Source: Prevotella sp. (lineage in GTDB: Bacteria; Bacteroidota; Bacteroidia; Bacteroidales; Bacteroidaceae). From it: a DNA stretch of 53,930 bases. This document shows, in pieces, positions 6,824 through 53,930 of this stretch. The stretch covers positions 1 to 53,930 of the forward strand of contig JAFSRY010000047.1 in the NCBI GenBank assembly GCA_017445845.1, in the 5' to 3' direction. The notes under the pieces are model-generated. The model was not told where the DNA came from. It did no database searches and worked only from the letters and a program-made list of their open reading frames with translations. The translations under genes and the position numbers were made by a program. Numbering within the stretch: position 1 is the stretch's first letter; each line of letters starts with the position of its first letter.

Positions 6824-7437
6824 GCTACCGGTCTTATCATTACACCAGCCGTACGGTAGTAACTCGATACCGTTACACCTAGTTCTTCATGTACATGAAT
6901 ACACCTGCCATATCGCTTGGTCGTTATAAACATGTTGTTCGGATCGCTTGTATCGTTGTCCAGCGTGCCTGTCCAGAAAATGCCGAACGGCATGTCGATG
7001 CTCCGTCCGTTGGGCCCCGTCAGGCGTATGCCGCCCTCCACGAGCTGCTGTTTGCACAGCCTGACAAGTTCTTCCGCCTCATGTTCTTCAGGCATGCGCA
7101 CATCGTCGCCCAGCAGCATGTGGGCAACGTCCATGTCGGTGCCGCTGATGTTGCCTATGTCCTCAAACTCTTCTATGTCTATTTTTTTAGGACAGGCGTA
7201 GTCCTGAAACATCGGAGGTACGTCATAGTCGTATACTACGCCGTTCTTACCATGCTTATAGTTGCTGAACAGGTACTTGCTCTTCTCCTCGGTTTCGCCA
7301 AAGGCATAGAGCGCGCCTCGCTCCAAGGGCGACGCAGCCTTGAGGTTACACGAGGCCCATTTTACATGTAGGCCAAGGTCTACAAAGTTTTCTTTCTCAA
7401 TTGAAGGCCGCAGTTTCTGGTTTGTCTCTTTCATCAT
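6814..7437 (-). CDS. FISUMP-like domain protein of unknown function
   Basis: 207 residues from ATG 7437 (7434 is equally possible); a longer frame would run into repeat sequence. The signature VDLGLHVKWASCNL...GALYAFGETEEKSKY is the FISUMP-like (Fibrobacter/Prevotella paralogous) motif normally written VDLGLxVKWAxxN and FAWGETxxK. Near the C-terminus are RSIDMPFGIFWTGT and VSSYYRTAGVMIRPV, which end this domain in surface proteins. Unusually there is no signal peptide, so this copy appears cytoplasmic. It overlaps the ADP-ribosylglycohydrolase start and probably works with it, but no function is known. Confidence 0.7.
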   Translation of the reverse strand: MMKETNQKLRPSIEKENFVDLGLHVKWASCNLKAASPLERGALYAFGETEEKSKYLFSNYKHGKNGVVYDYDVPPMFQDYACPKKIDIEEFEDIGNISGTDMDVAHMLLGDDVRMPEEHEAEELVRLCKQQLVEGGIRLTGPNGRSIDMPFGIFWTGTLDNDTSDPNNMFITTKRYGRCIHVHEELGVTVSSYYRTAGVMIRPVACK

Positions 7438-7455: not shown

Positions 7456-7489
7456 CAAGCATGGTCTGCACTCGCTGCTCCGTCCGTTG
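7456..7489. repeat. Partial copy of the 72-bp CAAG-hairpin repeat
   Basis: The stretch from CAAGCATGGTCTGC to CTCCGTCCGTTG matches the right half of the units at 11115-11330 with one change. It lies in the 129-base gap between the GH78 stop and the FISUMP-like start, so it is in the leader of the latter. Confidence 0.7.
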
Positions 7490-10898: not shown

Positions 10899-12299
10899 TT
10901 ACGATGATATCTTGCTTTCATTTTCTTCTATGTATTTACTTTTCCCCCTTAGATAGTTTCTCAGCGGATTGGCATACATCGTGAGGATGCGCTCGCGGAG
11001 GAACGGTTCATCCTTGTCGGGCAGGTCGATTTTGGCGAGTTGTCCGGCGAGATACTTCTCGAAGCGTTCCTTGTCCTTGTCGGTATAGTGGCTTGAGAGT
11101 TTGTCGTTTCCGTTGACTTCGTCTTCGTCCGTCACGACTCGGCCTACTTCATGCAAGCATGGTCTGCCCTCGCTGCTCCGTCCGTTGACTTCGTCTTCGT
11201 CCGTCACGACTCGGCATACTTCATGCAAGCATGGTCTGCCCTCGCTGCTCTGTCCGTTGACTTCGTCTTCGTCCGTCACGACTCGGCATACTTCATGCAA
11301 GCATGGTCTGCCCTCGCTGCTCCGTCCGTTGAGCAGGTCGAGTGCGATATAGTTGCAGGGGTAGAGGTGGTATTGGCTGTGTATCTGCCGGTCGATGTGT
11401 TCGGCAAGCGCCTTGAAGAAGTCGTTCTTTGGCAGTTGCTGTGCCTGCAGCTGTTCTATGAAGTCGTTGACGGTTGCTCCCCAATGGTAGTGCACACGTC
11501 CTTTGTAGCCAAAGATGCCCGTGCGCATGTTGTCGAGGTCATCCTGCTTACTCTTCTTGTGATGAGGGTTGTCGCGTTTCTGTTGGAACTCCTTGGCTTT
11601 GAGGTAGTCGCATGGGTCATATTCGTAGCTGATGGTCAGCGGCACGATGTTCAGTTCCTTCAGGTCGCCCCCCATCGCCAGCATCTTCAGCACCGACTCT
11701 TGCGTGCGGTCGTCAGAGTCTTTGGCTCGGCCTTCGCGTTGGGCAATCCAGATGTTTTCCTTCTTTGTGGTGACGGCATAGTGGATATATTGGCTCATGA
11801 GTTGGCTCGACCGCATCATCTCGTGCATCGACAACGCCCGTCGCACGATGAAGGCTTTGTTCATTCTCACCAGTCGCTTAATCCAAGGATAGATGAGCAG
11901 GTTGTCGCCAATGCCAATCTCAACGGTCGTGGGGAAATGGTTGTCGACGAGCAGCACGTCGAGGAATGCCGAGTCGAGCACGATGTCGCGATGGTTGGAG
12001 ATGAAGGTGTAGCGAGGTTTGAGGTTTGGGGTCGGGATGTCAGCGGTCAGCCCGTCGGTATGTTTCCTGATAATATACTTCACAACAGGTTTCATGAATC
12101 GTTTCTGGAAGTCTAACGGTGTCTTCACTCCCAGGAACACCAGTCGCAGAAGACCCTTTCGGAGAGCCTTGGGCATCCACGGAAGGAATCCTTTCAAGAC
12201 GAGGTTGAACTGTCGGTCGTCGAGTAGGGCCTCGAAAGCCTGCCGCATCTCCTCAGCCTCATAGGGCCGTATCTCATCGAAAATCTCTGGCGTCTTCAT
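10899..12299 (-). CDS. 1-acyl-glycerol-3-phosphate acyltransferase-like protein with repeat insertion
   Basis: 466 residues. FISNHRDIVLDSAFL (His103, Asp105, Asp109) is the catalytic motif of this Bacteroidetes acyltransferase group, a variant of HX4D; REGRAKDSDDRTQ about 100 residues later is the phosphate-binding region. Such proteins move acyl chains onto glycerophosphate-type acceptors at the inner membrane. Residues about 324-395 are three in-frame copies of a 24-residue unit beginning RSSEGRPCLHEV and ending TDEDEVNG, encoded by a 72-bp DNA repeat (11115-11330). The flanking sequence reads as normal protein, so the repeat expanded inside a working gene, in a position likely to be a surface loop. 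A TACCTTTG promoter lies at 12323-12330. Confidence 0.85.
   Translation of the reverse strand: MKTPEIFDEIRPYEAEEMRQAFEALLDDRQFNLVLKGFLPWMPKALRKGLLRLVFLGVKTPLDFQKRFMKPVVKYIIRKHTDGLTADIPTPNLKPRYTFISNHRDIVLDSAFLDVLLVDNHFPTTVEIGIGDNLLIYPWIKRLVRMNKAFIVRRALSMHEMMRSSQLMSQYIHYAVTTKKENIWIAQREGRAKDSDDRTQESVLKMLAMGGDLKELNIVPLTISYEYDPCDYLKAKEFQQKRDNPHHKKSKQDDLDNMRTGIFGYKGRVHYHWGATVNDFIEQLQAQQLPKNDFFKALAEHIDRQIHSQYHLYPCNYIALDLLNGRSSEGRPCLHEVCRVVTDEDEVNGQSSEGRPCLHEVCRVVTDEDEVNGRSSEGRPCLHEVGRVVTDEDEVNGNDKLSSHYTDKDKERFEKYLAGQLAKIDLPDKDEPFLRERILTMYANPLRNYLRGKSKYIEENESKISS
11115..11330. repeat. Three tandem 72-bp CAAG-hairpin units inside a coding sequence
   Basis: Units at 11115-11186, 11187-11258 and 11259-11330 each run from GACTTCGTCTTCG to CTCCGTCCGTT and differ at only two or three bases. 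Each has an inner stem CATG/CATG closing a CAAG loop and an outer GGCA/TGCC arm. The length is exactly 24 codons, so copy number can change without shifting the acyltransferase frame. Confidence 0.9.
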
Positions 12300-13373: not shown

Positions 13374-13456
13374 AGACCAGCCTTTGGTCTCATTGTGACC
13401 AGCCTTTGGTCTCGTCGTGACCAGCCTTTGGTCTCATTGAGACCAGCCTTTGGTCA
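13374..13456. repeat. 11-bp-phased palindromic array, word (A/T)GACCA
   Basis: Eight six-base words start at 13374 and every 11 bases after: AGACCA, TGGTCT, TGACCA, TGGTCT, TGACCA, TGGTCT, AGACCA, TGGTCA. Each is the near-exact reverse complement of its neighbour; spacers are five bases (GCCTT alternating with CATTG or CGTCG). The array lies between divergent genes (13081 and 13618). The rest of 13189-13617 is A/T-rich and gene-free; GAACTTTG at 13579-13586 is a weak promoter candidate for the arginine operon. Confidence 0.9.
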
Positions 13457-25615: not shown

Positions 25616-28366
25616 ATGAGAAGAACCATCGTTTCTTTTTTTTGTTGCCTCGCACTCGCCATGGCCGCACAACCGATGGAGCAGCGAGGGCAATGCAAAC
25701 TTGTTTGCACATTGCCGAGTCGCGACAGAGGAAGACAAAGTCAACCGCAACTTCGTGAAGACAACATCGACGAAGTCCTACAAGCCATGACCACAAAAGA
25801 AAAGGCAACCCTCTTGGTGGGGGGCAGTCCCTACCACCTCGTGCAAGGGGCAGGGGGAGGTACGCGCGCCATCCCTCGACTGGGCATTCCTGCCACCGTC
25901 TTCTCCGATGGGCCTGCCGGACTGCGCATAGATCCCATCCGCAGTAATACCAACAAGACTTTCTATTGCACAGCCTTCCCCAACGGAACGCTGTTGGCAA
26001 GCTCATGGGATACCGAGTTGGTTGAGGAAATGACGACAGCCATGGGCAACGAAGTGAAAGAATATGGCGTCGATGTGCTGCTGGCTCCTGGCATGAACAT
26101 CCATCGCAATCCGCTCTGCGGTCGCAACTTTGAATATTTTTCGGAAGACCCCCTGTTGTCGGGAAAGATAGCAGCAGCCTATGTTCGAGGCATCCAGAGC
26201 AATGGCGTGGGCACCTCCATCAAGCACTTCGCTGCCAACAATCAAGAGACCAACCGCACAGAGAACGATGCCCGCATCAGCCAACGGGCCCTGCGAGAAA
26301 TCTACCTGAAGAACTTCGAGATTGCCGTGAAGGAGTCGCAGCCCTGGACCATCATGTCGTCCTATAACAAGATGAATGGTCTCTATACTCAGCAGAACCC
26401 TGAGCTGCTGACGACTCTCTTGCGCGATGAATGGGGCTATCGGGGCATTGTTATCACCGACTGGGGTAATAAGTCGAATACCGTTGGAGCCGTGAAGGCG
26501 GGCAATGACCTCATGGACCCAGGCGAACAGGAAGAAATCGACCGCATTGTAGAAGGCATCAGTGACGGTCGCATCACGCCGTCGGAACTCGACCGCAATG
26601 TACGACGCATCCTGGAATATATTGTCAAGACACCGCGTTTCCACCAGTATAAATACTCCGACGCTCCCGATCTGAAGGCCCATGCTGCCATGGCTCATAA
26701 GGCTGCCCGTGAGTCGATAGTGCTCTTGCGCAACGACCGCGGCACACTACCCCTGAAGGGCACCGAGCGTGTGGCCCTCTATGGAGTGTCGTCGGTGGAC
26801 TTCGTTGCGGGTGGTACGGGCTCCGGCGAAGTCAACAAAGCCTATGTCGTCGACATGCAAAAGGCGCTCACCGCTGCAGGCTTCAAACTCGATGAACAAC
26901 TTGCCAATTACTACCGTGTGCAGAAGGAGGCTCAATATGCCGCCTTCGGCATGGAATATGAAGAGGATGGCGGCCGCCGTTCGAAGGAGGTACCCATCAA
27001 AGCCGATGTCATCGACTATCAGGCCAAGAACAATGATGTCGCCATCGTCGTTCTCGGTCGCAATGCCGGCGAAGGCTTCGACCGCAGGCGTGCCGATTTC
27101 GAGTTGACCGACGTGGAACGCGAACTGCTCAGGAACGTCAGCGAGAGCTATCGGCCGCGGGGCAAGCGGGTTGTCGTTGTATTGAACATTGGCGGTGTCA
27201 TCGAGACGGCATCGTGGAAGGGCCTCGTCGATGCCATCCTTCTGCCTTGGTCGCCGGGGCAGGACGGGGCCTATGCCATTGCCGACGTGCTCACAGGAAA
27301 AGTAAACCCTTCGGGGCGGCTGCCCATGACTTTCCCGCTGAACTACCTCGACATTCCTTCATCAGCCAACTTCCCTTATGATTTCGACGAACACGATGCC
27401 AACACAAAGACTGAGAATGTGGACTATACCACCTACACGGAGGACATCTGGGTGGGCTACCGCTACTTCCAGACTGTAGGTATGGAGGTTAGCTATCCTT
27501 TCGGCTACGGGCTGAGCTACACGCGTTTCAGTTGGACGAAGCCTGTGGTGAAGGCCACTGCCGATGGTTTTACGGCTGCCGTCACCGTCACCAATTCGGG
27601 CGATGTGGCAGGGCGCGACGTTGTGGAAGTCTATGTCACCGCCCCTGCCGGTGGCTTGGAAAAACCGTGCCAGGAGTTGAAAGCCTTTGCCAAGACGCGG
27701 CTGTTGCAGCCTGGCGAAAGCCAGACGCTGTCGTTCCGCGTGTCGGCCTACGAGCTGGCGTCGTTCAATGAGGATGCATCGGCTTGGCAGACTGCCGCTG
27801 GCGACTATCAGGTGCGCTTCGGTGCTTCTGCCACTGACATCAGGGCCTCTGCCGCCTTCGCCATGAAGAAGTCGCAAGAATGGCCCGTCAACAATATCTT
27901 CGGCATCAAGGACTTTGAACACTTCCCTGCCGTCGGTGCACAGCCGGCAGGACGGGGGCTGCGCTATGCCTACAGCGAGGGTGGTTTCATGAGTGTGGAG
28001 GCTGTGGCGGCGGCACCGGTGAAGACCGAGGGTATCGCCCCCTTCTTCACTACCAACCTGAAGGAGCGTGACGACCACTTCGGCCTTATCTTCAAAGGAC
28101 TTCTGAAGATTGACCGTGGCGGTTTCTACCGCCTCTCCATGACATCCGACGACGGTGCCAAGCTATGGTTTGACGGCAAACCGCTCCTCGACCTCAACCG
28201 CGACGGGGGTGGACATGCCGACACATGGCTCCAACTCGGCAAAGGCTTCCATCGCATAGAAGTGCAATTCTTTGAGAACTTCGCAGAAGAGAGCCTGCAG
28301 GTAGGCCTGCAAGGTCCTGGCATCACTGCCGAGAATATCCCTGCGGAACTGCTCTTCCATGAATGA
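25616..28366 (+). CDS. GH3 beta-glucosidase-type enzyme with PA14 domain; 24-residue repeat insertion
   Basis: 916 residues. Signal peptide MRRTIVSFFCCLALAMAAQ. Residues 20-43 (PMEQRGQCKLVCTLPSRDRG and on) are encoded by a complete 72-bp repeat (25671-25742) placed between the signal peptide and the first conserved helix NIDEVLQAMTTKEKATLLVG. GH3 features: RLGIPATVFSDGPAGLR, GRNFEYFSEDPLLSG, SIKHFAANNQETNR, IVITDWGNKSN with nucleophile Asp282, and VVVVLNIGGVIETASW. A fibronectin-like domain follows, and the final 100 residues are a PA14 domain (YRLSMTSDDGAKLWFDG). Six bases after GH92. Probably a secreted exo-acting glucosidase; exact linkage unknown. Confidence 0.93.
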   Translation: MRRTIVSFFCCLALAMAAQPMEQRGQCKLVCTLPSRDRGRQSQPQLREDNIDEVLQAMTTKEKATLLVGGSPYHLVQGAGGGTRAIPRLGIPATVFSDGPAGLRIDPIRSNTNKTFYCTAFPNGTLLASSWDTELVEEMTTAMGNEVKEYGVDVLLAPGMNIHRNPLCGRNFEYFSEDPLLSGKIAAAYVRGIQSNGVGTSIKHFAANNQETNRTENDARISQRALREIYLKNFEIAVKESQPWTIMSSYNKMNGLYTQQNPELLTTLLRDEWGYRGIVITDWGNKSNTVGAVKAGNDLMDPGEQEEIDRIVEGISDGRITPSELDRNVRRILEYIVKTPRFHQYKYSDAPDLKAHAAMAHKAARESIVLLRNDRGTLPLKGTERVALYGVSSVDFVAGGTGSGEVNKAYVVDMQKALTAAGFKLDEQLANYYRVQKEAQYAAFGMEYEEDGGRRSKEVPIKADVIDYQAKNNDVAIVVLGRNAGEGFDRRRADFELTDVERELLRNVSESYRPRGKRVVVVLNIGGVIETASWKGLVDAILLPWSPGQDGAYAIADVLTGKVNPSGRLPMTFPLNYLDIPSSANFPYDFDEHDANTKTENVDYTTYTEDIWVGYRYFQTVGMEVSYPFGYGLSYTRFSWTKPVVKATADGFTAAVTVTNSGDVAGRDVVEVYVTAPAGGLEKPCQELKAFAKTRLLQPGESQTLSFRVSAYELASFNEDASAWQTAAGDYQVRFGASATDIRASAAFAMKKSQEWPVNNIFGIKDFEHFPAVGAQPAGRGLRYAYSEGGFMSVEAVAAAPVKTEGIAPFFTTNLKERDDHFGLIFKGLLKIDRGGFYRLSMTSDDGAKLWFDGKPLLDLNRDGGGHADTWLQLGKGFHRIEVQFFENFAEESLQVGLQGPGITAENIPAELLFHE
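25671..25742 (-). repeat. 72-bp CAAG-hairpin repeat inside the GH3 signal-peptide junction
   Basis: Reverse-complement copy, identical over all 72 bases to the units at 50140-50211 and 53800-53871. CAACCG occurs at both edges (25670-25675 and 25742-25747), either a short target duplication or the start of a next unit. It reads as 24 codons without a stop. Confidence 0.92.
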
Positions 28367-28406
28367 AAGTTAGAATTAGTCGTTGGGTCGTTTGGCAGAG
28401 CAGGAA

Positions 28407-28560
28407 CGTTTTCGTTAAGCCACAAGAGCAGACCAAGCTTGCTTGATGTCTGCCTTGGCGAGAAAAGGTCGGATGAAATCCAACGTTTTCGTTAAGCCAC
28501 AAGAGCAGACCAAGCTTGCTTGATGTCTGCCTTGGTGATAAAAGGTCGGATGAAATCCAA
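28407..28560 (-). repeat. Two tandem 77-bp mosaic hairpin units
   Basis: Units 28407-28483 and 28484-28560 run from CGTTTTCGTTAAGCC through the hairpin (outer GCAGA/TCTGC, inner CAAG/CTTG, loop CTTG as read on the plus strand) to GGTCGGATGAAATCCAA. They differ by two bases. Their end abuts the stop codon of the minus-strand gene at 28562, so they fill the convergent gap 28367-28561 and may act as a bidirectional terminator. Confidence 0.88.
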
Positions 28561-29857: not shown

Positions 29858-30006
29858 GGGTGTGTCAAAATTGAAGGTAGTGCGCTTTGCGCAGAAATCT
29901 CACAAATCTATCCAAAATCTTTCATCTTGTCTATCAGGACTTTTGATTTGTATAGATTTGTAGGATTTCTCGTCCGTAGGACGACTGATTTCATTTTGAC
30001 ACGCGC
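29858..30006. mobile_element. MITE-like element with GGGTGTGTCAAAAT end
   Basis: The left end GGGTGTGTCAAAAT (29858-29871) faces a right end ATTTTGACAC (29993-30002). Inside are runs related to AAATCT..ACAAATC and the block TTTGTATAGATTTG, TCTCGTCCG, AGGACGACTGA. The right half recurs at 50269-50389 with the fuller end ATTTTGACACACCC. No ORF lies inside. It occupies most of the gap between the patatin gene and the SpoIIM promoter; the remaining 30007-30181 shows nothing recognisable. Confidence 0.6.
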
Positions 30007-31212: not shown

Positions 31213-31282
31213 ATTACTCATGGCCTGCCAAAGCCTCCACAAACCGGCAGGCACTCCCCTCCTTGGGAGGGGCAGGGGGAGG
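31213..31282. repeat. 70-bp repeat in the leader of the membrane-protein gene
   Basis: From ATTACTCATGG through GCCTGCC...GGCAGGC (hairpin) to ACTCCCCTCCTTGGGAGGGG and GGGGGAGG. It differs by one base from 34269-34338 in the same operon and ends 10 bases before the start codon. CGTCAACTAAAA-type words at 31163 and 31189 precede it. Confidence 0.85.
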
Positions 31283-31292
31283 TCCTGAAAAT

Positions 31293-34268: not shown

Positions 34269-34338
34269 ATTACTCATGGCCTGCCAAAGCCTCCACAAAC
34301 CGGCAGGCACTCCCCTCCTTGGGAGGGGAAGGGGGAGG
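34269..34338. repeat. 70-bp repeat in the moxR leader
   Basis: 69 of 70 bases match 31213-31282. It starts two bases after the DUF4350 stop codon and ends 11 bases before the moxR start, filling the whole intergenic gap. Its CCCCTCC-TTG-GGAGGGG hairpin could terminate, attenuate or protect the operon RNA at two points. Confidence 0.88.
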
Positions 34339-34349
34339 CTCCCTAAAAA

Positions 34350-42807: not shown

Positions 42808-42873
42808 GTTTTCCAGTTTATCAGTGTCCTGAAAAAACAGCTTCGGAAAAGACGATTCTAAGCATCGGAATTG

Positions 42874-43825: not shown

Positions 43826-44521
43826 TCACTCCGACTGGCACTCCCCGCCTTGTGAGGAGGCAGGGGCGGACTTGGCCAAGAACTCCCTCACCATCTCCAG
43901 AGCTTCCTGCTTGGCTGTTTCGAGGTCGTCGTTAATGAGGATGCGGTCAAACTGCGGGGCGAATGTCATTTCGTATTCAGCCTTGGCAATGCGTTCGTTA
44001 ATGGCTTCGGGGCTGTCGGTCTGGCGGCCTTCAAGTCGGCGGCGCAGTTCTTCTACCGACGGCGGCTGGATGAAGATGCTCAAGGCGCGAGTGCCATAGA
44101 ACTTCTTGATGTTGATGCCGCCTTTGACGTCGACATCGAAGACTACATTCTGCCCGGCGGCCAACTGCCTTTCCACCTGCTCTTTGAGTGTGCCGTAGAA
44201 GCGGTTCTCATATACCTCCTCGTATTCGAGGAACTCATCGCGTCCGATACGCTCGCGAAACTCTTCGGGCGATATAAAAAAATACTCAACGCCATTCTGT
44301 TCCTGTCCGCGTGGGGGCCGGCTTGTGCATGAGATGCTGAAGGCCAGCCTCAGTTCCGGATGTTCCTGTCTCAGCCAGTTCACGATGGTCGACTTGCCTG
44401 AACCAGAGGGGGCACTGACGATGATGAGGCCTCCCCCGACTCCTCCCAAGGAGGGGGGTGCCTGGCGGGTCAAATCTGATTCTACGGTGGTAGCGGAACT
44501 CTTAGGTATAATCTTGTTCAT
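43826..44521 (-). CDS. gmk: Guanylate kinase with repeat-encoded ends
   Basis: 231 residues. GLIIVSAPSGSGKSTIV is the P-loop, SCTSRPPRGQEQNGVEYFFI binds GMP, and VVFDVDVKGGINIKK is the next conserved block. Converts GMP to GDP in the cytoplasm. The normal enzyme is about 190-205 residues and starts a few residues before GLIIVSAP. Here residues 20-31 (RQAPPSLGGVGG) come from a C/G-rich repeat (44428-44470), and the C-terminal tail SAPASSQGGECQSE from another copy (43828-43870). Both ends were therefore altered by the same repeat family without harming the core. Confidence 0.93.
   Translation of the reverse strand: MNKIIPKSSATTVESDLTRQAPPSLGGVGGGLIIVSAPSGSGKSTIVNWLRQEHPELRLAFSISCTSRPPRGQEQNGVEYFFISPEEFRERIGRDEFLEYEEVYENRFYGTLKEQVERQLAAGQNVVFDVDVKGGINIKKFYGTRALSIFIQPPSVEELRRRLEGRQTDSPEAINERIAKAEYEMTFAPQFDRILINDDLETAKQEALEMVREFLAKSAPASSQGGECQSE
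43828..43870. repeat. C/G-rich hairpin repeat forming the gmk C-terminus
   Basis: ACTCCGACTGGCACTCCCC, GCCTTGTGAGGAGGC and AGGGGCGGA. On the minus strand it encodes the last residues and stop of guanylate kinase. The ACTCCGA lead-in is shared with 44622-44667. Confidence 0.65.
44428..44470. repeat. C/G-rich hairpin repeat in the gmk N-terminus
   Basis: Minus strand GACCCGCCAGGCACCCCC, CTCCTTGGGAGGAG, GGGGGAGGCC; encodes APPSLGGVGGG before the P-loop. Confidence 0.75.
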
Positions 44522-44621: not shown

Positions 44622-44667
44622 ACTCCGATAGGTACTCCCCTCCTTGGGAGGGGATGGGGGAGGCTCT
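44622..44667. repeat. C/G-rich hairpin repeat between yicC and gmk
   Basis: ACTCCGATAGGTACTCCCC, TCCTTGGGAGGGG and ATGGGGGAGGC; a near-consensus copy that ends six bases from the yicC stop. Confidence 0.8.
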
Positions 44668-44672
44668 CAATT

Positions 44673-50040: not shown

Positions 50041-50268
50041 TTGGATTTCATCCGACCTTTTCTCGTCATGCCAAAGCTCAGACAAGTCTGGCTTTGGTCA
50101 TTTGACTTAATGAAAACGTTGGATTTCATCCGACCTTTTGACTTTGTCTTCCTCTGTCGCGACTCGGCAATGTGCAAACAAGTTTGCATTGCCCTCGCTG
50201 CTCCATCGGTTCTCGCCAAGGCAGACATCAAGCAAGCTTGGTCTGCTCTTATGGCTTAACGAAAAGGT
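50041..50268 (+). repeat. Mosaic of three CAAG-hairpin modules between convergent genes
   Basis: In order: TTGGATTTCATCCGACC linker; a module with outer arms CCAAAGC/GCTTTGG, inner CAGA/TCTG and loop CAAG (50062-50118); the linker again (50119-50139); the 72-bp module (50140-50211) with outer GGCAA/TTGCC, inner TGCAAA/TTTGCA and loop CAAG; and a module with outer GCAGA/TCTGC, inner CAAG/CTTG and loop CAAG (50212-50268). Three different stems share one loop, and each has its bulge on the 5' side. Confidence 0.9.
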
Positions 50269-50389
50269 TCAAATCTTAACAAATCAAACAAATCATAAGG
50301 GCAAAAAATCATAAAGATTTGACAGGTTTTGTATAGATTTGTCGGATTTCTCGTCCGCAGGACGACTGAATATCTATTTTGACACACCC
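50269..50389. mobile_element. Right part of the MITE-like element
   Basis: AAATCTTAACAAATC at the left, then TTTGTATAGATTTG, CTCGTCCG, AGGACGACTGA and the end ATTTTGACACACCC (50376-50389). The block matches 29930-30002, but the GGGTGTGTCAAAAT left end is replaced by the CAAG-hairpin mosaic. Confidence 0.55.
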
Positions 50390-53742: not shown

Positions 53743-53930
53743 TTGAATTTCATTCGACCTTTTGACTTAACGAAAACGCTGGATTTCATCCGACCTTTTG
53801 ACTTTGTCTTCCTCTGTCGCGACTCGGCAATGTGCAAACAAGTTTGCATTGCCCTCGCTGCTCCATCGGTTGACTTTGTCTTCCTCTGTCGCGACTCGGC
53901 AATGTGCAAACAAGTTTGCATTGCCCTCGC
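53743..53930 (+). repeat. Mosaic of linker and tandem 72-bp CAAG-hairpin units (runs off the window)
   Basis: TTGAATTTCATTCGACC linker, TTTTGACTTAACGAAAACGC, TGGATTTCATCCGACC linker, then the 72-bp unit at 53800-53871 and the first 59 bases of another at 53872-53930. The complete unit is identical to 50140-50211. It lies directly upstream of the YitT-family start, so promoter or leader function is affected by it. Confidence 0.9.

Follow-up and report, generated by a model that had tools for sequence, protein, structure and literature searches.

Structured mobile hairpin elements of Bacteroidales that occur in frame within protein-coding genes

Results and Discussion

Hairpin Elements in the Window

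The window, a 53,930-nt contig from the assembly of a Prevotella sp. (GCA_017445845.1; 2.46 Mb in 103 contigs, 75.5% complete), contains hairpins of ∼70–80 nt between and within its genes. These hairpins are larger than first described and belong to one superfamily with a common plan, in which the target TT is followed by a mini-hairpin, then TT or GA, then the outer stem P1, a bulged hairpin, P1′, and a final TT. F1 units are mostly 69–75 nt long and 72 nt in the window (GACTTYGTCTTCSTCYGTCRCGACTCGGC-hairpin-CTCGCTGCTCCRTCSGTT), and F2 units are about 72–80 nt long and 77–78 nt in the window (GGATTTCATCCGACCTTTTCTCGCC-hairpin-GGCTTAACGAAAACGTT). The copies and their host genes are as follows.

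7456–7488, plus strand: 3′ fragment of F1.
10899–12299, minus strand: acyltransferase-like host gene encoding 466 aa, 72 of them in an insert (22.4 bits to Pfam PF01553, slightly under its 23-bit cut-off).
11115–11330, plus strand: three tandem F1 (3 × 72 nt, CATG-CAAG-CATG); the minus strand is in frame and gives three NGRSSEGRPCLHEVCRVVTDEDEV-like peptides.
25616–28366, plus strand: GH3 glycosidase host gene with Fn3-like and PA14 domains, 916 aa (Pfam).
25671–25742, minus strand: F1, 72 nt, in frame in the gene in the second sense frame (MEQRGQCKLVCTLPSRDRGRQSQP); by eye, it adjoins the predicted signal-peptide end.
28405–28481, minus strand: F2, 77 nt, second of a tandem pair (105.8 bits).
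28482–28558, minus strand: F2, 77 nt, first of the tandem pair (model match 28482–28560, 102.7 bits).
50043–50120, plus strand: F2, 78 nt, hairpin CCAAAGC-T-CAGA-CAAG-TCTG-GCTTTGG, CGTT end (model match 50041–50120, 91 bits).
50121–50139, plus strand: 5′ part of a second F2, split by F1 (mini-hairpin GGAT-TTC-ATCC, GA, outer-stem strand CCTTTT).
50140–50211, plus strand: F1, 72 nt, inserted in F2 after TTTT (94.1 bits).
50212–50269, plus strand: 3′ part of the split F2, hairpin GCAGAC-AT-CAAG-CAAG-CTTG-GTCTGC, GGTT end.
53745–53780, plus strand: F2 derivative without the main hairpin, both ends kept (39.7 bits).
53781–53799, plus strand: F2 5′ part joined to F1, from sequence and a GGATTTCATCCGACC match.
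53800–53871, plus strand: F1, first of a tandem array, by the F1 model.
53872–53930, plus strand: F1 cut by the contig end (F1 model positions 1–59).

The mosaic at 50041–50269 consists of one F2 and, after it, a second F2 that is interrupted by an F1. A preliminary description of this DNA had proposed modules joined by a common linker, GGATTTCATCCGACC. The sequence is indeed recurrent, with six window matches at up to three mismatches (shuffles average 1.7 and 0/100 reach six) and 23 places in the 2.46-Mb assembly at up to one mismatch, but it is the 5′ end of F2 (mini-hairpin GGAT-TTC-ATCC plus outer-stem strand) rather than a linker. A mechanical scan that tolerated no mismatches recovered hairpins with a 5′-side bulge and a CAAG loop at 50083, 50179, 50233, 53839, and 53911 on the plus strand and at 25700, 28438, and 28515 on the minus strand; its ninth match, at 7374, looks like chance, and the CAAG copies at 11115–11330 fall outside its matches. 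All four inner-arm types reported earlier are present, and the intragenic copies at 11115–11330 and 25671–25742, in the same window, had been missed. The CAAG loop had been taken as fixed and is not, since 151 parsed F1 hairpins carry CAAG in 77 cases, CGAG in 32, and other loops in 42, and F2 copies with a TAAA loop exist in the same genome. The bulge lies on the 5′ side in 133 of 167 F1 copies (none in 11, 3′ in 7, unparsed in 16). On the sense strand, the F1 main-hairpin loops read CTTG/CTCG and the mini-hairpin loops are GNA in 84/146 and AAA in 32/146; the mini-hairpin is not formed in 21/167 copies. P1 is a 6-bp subterminal inverted repeat, and by eye we saw no inverted repeats at the very ends of the elements.

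Other repeats are present in the window. Head-to-tail 22-bp units holding GACCAGCCTTTGGTC occupy 13375–13455, and a similar motif stands beside an F2 in locus L009. A dispersed GC-rich hairpin repeat (CTCCCCTCCTTGGGAGGGG-like) occurs on both strands at 31244–31289, 34300–34345, 43831–43876, 44429–44468, and 44625–44670, with copies 72–87% identical to the first and one of them a sub-threshold whalefall-1 match. A 42-nt repeat, 95% identical, lies at 29947–29988 and 50328–50369, the latter just downstream of the composite at 50041–50269, and two 149-nt repeat pairs lie at 42850–42998/52588–52736 (70% identical) and 320–468/3828–3976 (88% identical).

Stems Covary

Of 183 unique F1-model sequences, 167 could be parsed (the remaining 16 include F2-like, truncated, and composite sequences), yielding 101 distinct outer parts. 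The strongest covariation in these outer parts is in the outer stem P1, which was absent from the preliminary description. Pair R8–T5 carries 1.41 bits, takes all four Watson–Crick types (GC 36, CG 29, TA 22, AT 5; n = 101), and is paired in 94% versus 40% expected. R5–T2, R9–T6, and R4–T1 covary likewise around a 2 × 2 T·C mismatch that is paired in some copies, and the 5′ mini-hairpin of F1 covaries as GAC/GTC, GGC/GCC, and AAC/GTT. Covariation was also tested on 41 distinct 72-nt F1 copies against a 23-pair structure hand-drawn from such sequences. Two-sided changes with pairing kept are found at 20/23 pairs versus 9.5 after shuffling (0/500 shuffles as high) and in 112 cells versus 28, and 87.5% of cells are paired versus 74.0%; these shuffles leave the relatedness of the copies in place. 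When partners are slid, every F1 covariation measure falls. Helix 3 of F1 (columns 21–23/56–58) is nearly invariant and without covariation support, and the two central pairs of helix 2 are unpaired in 34/41 copies.

For F2, 77 unique sequences from 89 matches passed a filter on length and first letter, and 66 of them differ in their ends; P1 holds 5.32 of 6 Watson–Crick pairs versus 4.49 shuffled (maximum of 500 shuffles, 4.73). Unaided, RNAalifold recovers the mini-hairpin and main hairpin and not the outer stem. Among seven sequences for which fold energies were computed, F2 has the stronger values (z −3.0 to −4.6), those of F1 being modest (z −1.2 to −2.2). The covarying stems, in copies that are not just exact duplicates of one sequence, strongly support the selection on structure suggested in the preliminary description. 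Covariation by itself does not discriminate between DNA and RNA as the folded form. Mini-hairpins with GNA loops are very stable in DNA, and the GNA loops of F1 are no more than a hint of DNA.

In two cases, a pair of genomes has F1 at one shared site of one gene but with different stems (L117:1465–1536 and L142:1478–1546; L058:1501–1572 and L078:1501–1572); the element ends are nearly constant, and the gene flanks are just 55–78% identical. This pattern could arise if the stem is replaced, if the element inserts anew, or if compensatory drift is fast.

F1 Lies in Frame within Unrelated Genes

The F1 array at 11115–11330 adds 3 × 24 residues (72 aa) to the acyltransferase-like protein. Matches were found in 59/60 drawn genomes, and the 19 best loci besides our own were aligned; the insert is absent from 18 of them, which read xDx(L/V)-(N/S/E/Q)G at the site, and the remaining ortholog, L341, has a shorter, unrelated insert. 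The F1 at 25671–25742 adds 24 residues to the GH3 glycosidase that are absent from all 11 aligned homologs (36/40 genomes matched; identities 53–58%, with script-chosen starts), some of which may be paralogs and one of which, L492, aligns poorly at the insert site. When ten host ORFs were searched with Pfam, the hosts besides these two were an ABC transporter, a type I restriction R subunit, a carboxymuconolactone decarboxylase with a cupin, a zinc-ribbon/PNPOx protein, a HipA-like protein, one frame with carboxylesterase and GH3 domains, L142, which matched no family, and the ORF at L196:1680–1751, where an MsrA frame continues through F1 into a creatininase frame as one 492-codon ORF.

Of 257 F1 matches, 192 were kept after removal of those with less than 60 nt on either side and of near-duplicate contexts. 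Of these, 57 lie deep in an ORF, flanked in both directions by 60 or more open codons, with ORFs judged by openness alone. The reading frame through these 57 copies is sense-0 in 37, giving the peptide N-GRSSE...GRVVTDE, sense-2 in 11, sense-1 in 2, and antisense in 7. Counted per distinct ORF (n = 52, a few being the same site in related species), the numbers are 33, 11, 2, and 6. The antisense frames are open in 195, 199, and 225 of the 257 F1 and sense-0 in 185; because the antisense frames are open as often as sense-0, openness alone predicts sense-0 in 17%, against the 37/57 observed (p = 2.5 × 10⁻¹⁵, with copies taken as independent). The length is a multiple of three in 79/92 F1 inside ORFs versus 39/93 intergenic copies (coarser ORF map, not deduplicated, 11 edge cases excluded). 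This contrast has some circularity, since only copies that keep the frame can be crossed by an ORF. F1 is therefore often found within open frames, where its strand, frame, and length add a short peptide (N-GRSSE...GRVVTDE..) and leave the frame unbroken. Selection, rather than the mover, is the simpler reading of the strand and frame bias.

Junctions and Empty Sites

Among fetched loci of our genome, the F2 junction at which F1 is found is uninterrupted in 10 distinct contexts and interrupted in 6, by exactly 72 nt in five and 144 nt in one. F1 sits mostly after TT: on the sense strand, the sequence following F1 starts with AA in 153/192 contexts (139/178 once 14 unit–unit junctions are removed), and the preceding base is G or C in 168/192. 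No target duplication beyond a possible TT was found at the compared sites, and this TT could belong to either the element or the target. The P1 covariation adjoins the last TT and does not cover it. Units nest and form head-to-tail arrays.

One nearly identical multi-kb region with one F1 is found in five records (L192, L205, L210, L234, L236), which comprise Phocaeicola coprophilus, P. faecicola, Bacteroides faecalis, and two MAGs, with Paludibacteraceae and Bacteroidaceae among the records. Such near identity points to recent horizontal transfer carrying F1, and the region may be ICE-like. The joined flanks of one F1 of this region were searched in 301 family genomes, and 19 matched. Four F1-filled sites are 99–100% identical, and a fifth, in G219 (77–79%), has a diverged F1. 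Nine empty sites, 69–75% identical, could be aligned, and relative to them the filled form is a 73-nt insert. In seven of the nine, the junction is GGTC(T/C)(T)(A/C)AC-like with no base added beyond the element; two differ more. We note that, three positions left of the junction, the filled form has four bases (TCAC) that the empty sites lack, so the case for clean insertion draws more strongly on the comparisons made with F2 and with proteins. Sites that are otherwise alike thus differ in having or lacking F1, and the helices of F1 are maintained by compensatory change.

Distribution

Covariance models match our assembly 34 times for F1 and 33 times for F2. Scanning relatives in this way, a check proposed in the preliminary description, found F1 in 89/150 genus genomes (∼600 matches in total) and F2 in 61/100, our own included in each case. 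In a class-wide draw of 395 genomes, at E ≤ 1 × 10⁻⁶ and with stricter filters, F1 was found in our genome and two of the same order; two other same-genus genomes in that draw showed no F1. A pattern scan of named genomes found at least 113 F1-type stretches. Among the 80 matches listed, all titles but one name a Bacteroidales taxon, the exception reading "Bacteroidetes" only, and four are isolates, three of them with the multi-kb F1 region. IMG/VR holds 11 F1-type stretches (L469–L479), several with a longer hairpin, and the phage and plasmid collections gave one record each at 76% identity. Titles and abstracts outside subscription papers gave none describing these elements in Prevotella or Bacteroidales.

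Candidate Movers and Alternative Explanations

Taken together, we consider it likely (probability roughly 0.7) that F1 and F2 are non-autonomous structured mobile elements of Bacteroidales, joined as single strands 3′ of TT by an enzyme acting in trans. A folded single strand would be excised or copied and then joined 3′ of TT, and our best guess is single-strand transposition by an enzyme supplied in trans, much as at IS200/IS605 ends. The P1 strand, which precedes the main hairpin on its 5′ side, would pair next to the 3′ cut, in a position comparable to that of an IS608 guide, and selection would then clear those insertions whose frame is harmful. Against this explanation count the lack of a Y1 transposase over the cut-off in eight F1-bearing genomes and of an autonomous relative in the fetched loci, the differing stems of same-site copies, and the ordinary F1 fold energy. 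Members of IS200/IS605 are described as inserting 3′ of a short target with asymmetric hairpin ends, for which a guide-strand model exists (PMC8266576). Like these ends, F1 sits 3′ of a fixed short target without duplication (the TT shift and TCAC aside) and has an asymmetric hairpin, and its P1 strand may pair close to the 3′ cut as a guide would. Unlike in these ends, the P1 pairing stops 2 nt before the cut, no transposase over the cut-off was found in eight genomes, and the whole element is 70–80 nt.

A more tentative possibility is that the elements form a new single-strand mobile class with its own mover and no Y1, in which TT cuts would be set by P1 pairing, sequences would drift while helices hold, and the frame would be tuned for life in protein genes.

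We regard spread through RNA, in which a reverse transcriptase copies the unit from a folded transcript, as improbable. The covariation fits RNA equally, the sense-strand loops are CTTG/CTCG, and truncated copies exist; full-length copies nevertheless predominate among the model matches.

The preliminary description likened the hairpins to REP/BIME elements driven by a RAYT transposase. The likeness is a fair analogy in its bulged hairpins and mosaic arrays, but by eye the 41 aligned F1 have no GTAG foot. No Y1_Tnp was found in our genome (75.5% complete) at E ≤ 0.001, and no Y1 transposase exceeded the cut-off in eight F1-bearing genomes chosen as negatives of an earlier 150-genome Y1 scan (8–34 F1 matches each, four of them 97–99% complete; weak sub-cut-off matches, best E 0.001). 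A known class of single-strand mover is thus missing there, and a RAYT would have to have been lost since from some rich genomes, which we judge a shade less probable than RNA-mediated spread. Presence across the 150 genomes is positively associated (both 61, F1 only 28, Y1 only 26, neither 35; p = 0.0023), G049, among the most F1-rich genomes with 33 matches, has Y1 genes, and a ∼280-aa RAYT-like class, hand-picked from weaker Y1 matches, is accompanied by F1 in 24/28 of its genomes (p = 0.0014). The strong IS200-like Y1 class, in contrast, is unassociated with F1 (p = 0.41). The proposed check for a Y1 gene flanked by the same repeats also gave little. The 30 strongest Y1 loci contain one clear F1 match, one F1 at E 0.086, and one F2, and a plain bulged-hairpin search near them was positive in 5/30 with a CAAG loop in none; 20 RAYT-like loci (L449–L468) have F1 at E ≤ 0.001 in 3/20 and F2 in 0/20. 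By eye, ∼14/20 of these RAYT-like genes are flanked on both sides by their own unrelated repeats of the GGGGACAGG...CCTGTCCCC kind. The presence association notwithstanding, these results do not bear out RAYT drive, and we would not file F1/F2 under REP/RAYT, while retaining, as an inference, a working like that of IS200/IS605 ends.

As a side observation, many of the ∼280-aa Y1 proteins at L449–L468 have flanking inverted repeats, e.g., GGGGACAGGTTTTTGATT...AATCAAAAACCTGTCCCC, a separate repeat family.

Autonomous parents with the same ends were sought in fetched loci, where 13 lone 5′ halves had no 3′ half 150–5000 nt downstream; several of these are truncated or diverged full copies. Two further candidates were rejected. 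F1 pairs 1.6 kb apart in L187 and L196 enclose ordinary-looking ORFs, and the identical F1 in five named records reflects the shared multi-kb region instead of a parent transposon.

Host-kept RNA-end or terminator hairpins, as the preliminary description suggested for convergent gaps, are very improbable as a general explanation: the two F2 places in the window do lie between convergent ORFs, but such placement holds for just 9/196 F1 and 4/37 F2 (approximate ORF map, not deduplicated), 92/196 F1 copies are inside ORFs on that map, presence is patchy, and the three sub-threshold Rfam matches in the window at E ≤ 1 include none at the elements. Integron attC sites have inverted R boxes, RYYYAAC/GTTRRRY. 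Integron-like attC sites with a tyrosine recombinase acting at GTT, to which the GTT at junctions, head-to-tail arrays, one-sided bulge, and structure kept over sequence would be suited, are just as hard to credit, since by eye the GTT end has no RYYYAAC partner: the two arms of the mini-hairpin pair with each other, and the outer stem ends short of TT.

Comparison with Known Repeat Families

The closest known kind appears to be the Rickettsia palindromic elements (RPE), described as short palindromic mobile repeats that lie in frame in unrelated genes and add a conserved peptide (PMC10969869, PMC3733652). According to these sources, Rickettsia provides the best-known examples of mobile peptides inserted in frame, and some other bacteria have REPs inside genes (PMC3733652, PMC10969869). 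Like RPE, F1 occurs within protein genes in a frame that encodes a recurrent peptide (37/57 in the same strand and frame; empty orthologs). Unlike RPE (∼150), F1 is mostly 69–75 nt, with several covarying helices, TT junctions, and hosts across Bacteroidales, in another phylum, and the likeness drawn here is one of behavior.

GTAG and CGTC REPs, BIMEs, and REPINs are described as hairpins, some bulged, that form arrays and have some intragenic copies (PMC3733652, PMC8266576), and Bacteroidetes are listed among CGTC-repeat hosts (PMC3733652). F1 contains a CGTC/TGTC string as CGTC REPs do, although in the outer stem and not at the hairpin foot, and shares with REPs an imperfect palindrome with a bulge (5′ in 133/167). 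F1 and F2 differ from REPs in being longer and in their mini-hairpin, head-to-tail arrays, and want of a Y1 gene in the eight F1-bearing genomes. They resemble DDE-type MITEs in being short, non-autonomous, and dispersed, and differ by eye in having neither inverted repeats at the very ends nor a duplication beyond the possible TT.

Conclusions

Several questions are now testable: what the mover is, whether the inserts are translated, and whether selection or the mover sets the frame. The repeats occur at contig ends, as in the window, which ends in an F1 array, and their recurrent peptides appear in many predicted proteins. Should the elements prove to be a new mobile class, they could lengthen, tandemly repeat, or fuse host proteins. 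This behavior, comparable to that of RPE, is seen here in Bacteroidales of the gut and rumen, cultured ones among them. F1 and F2 are a real, widespread family with an architecture of its own and, by analogy, appear to extend the way of life of RPE to another phylum.
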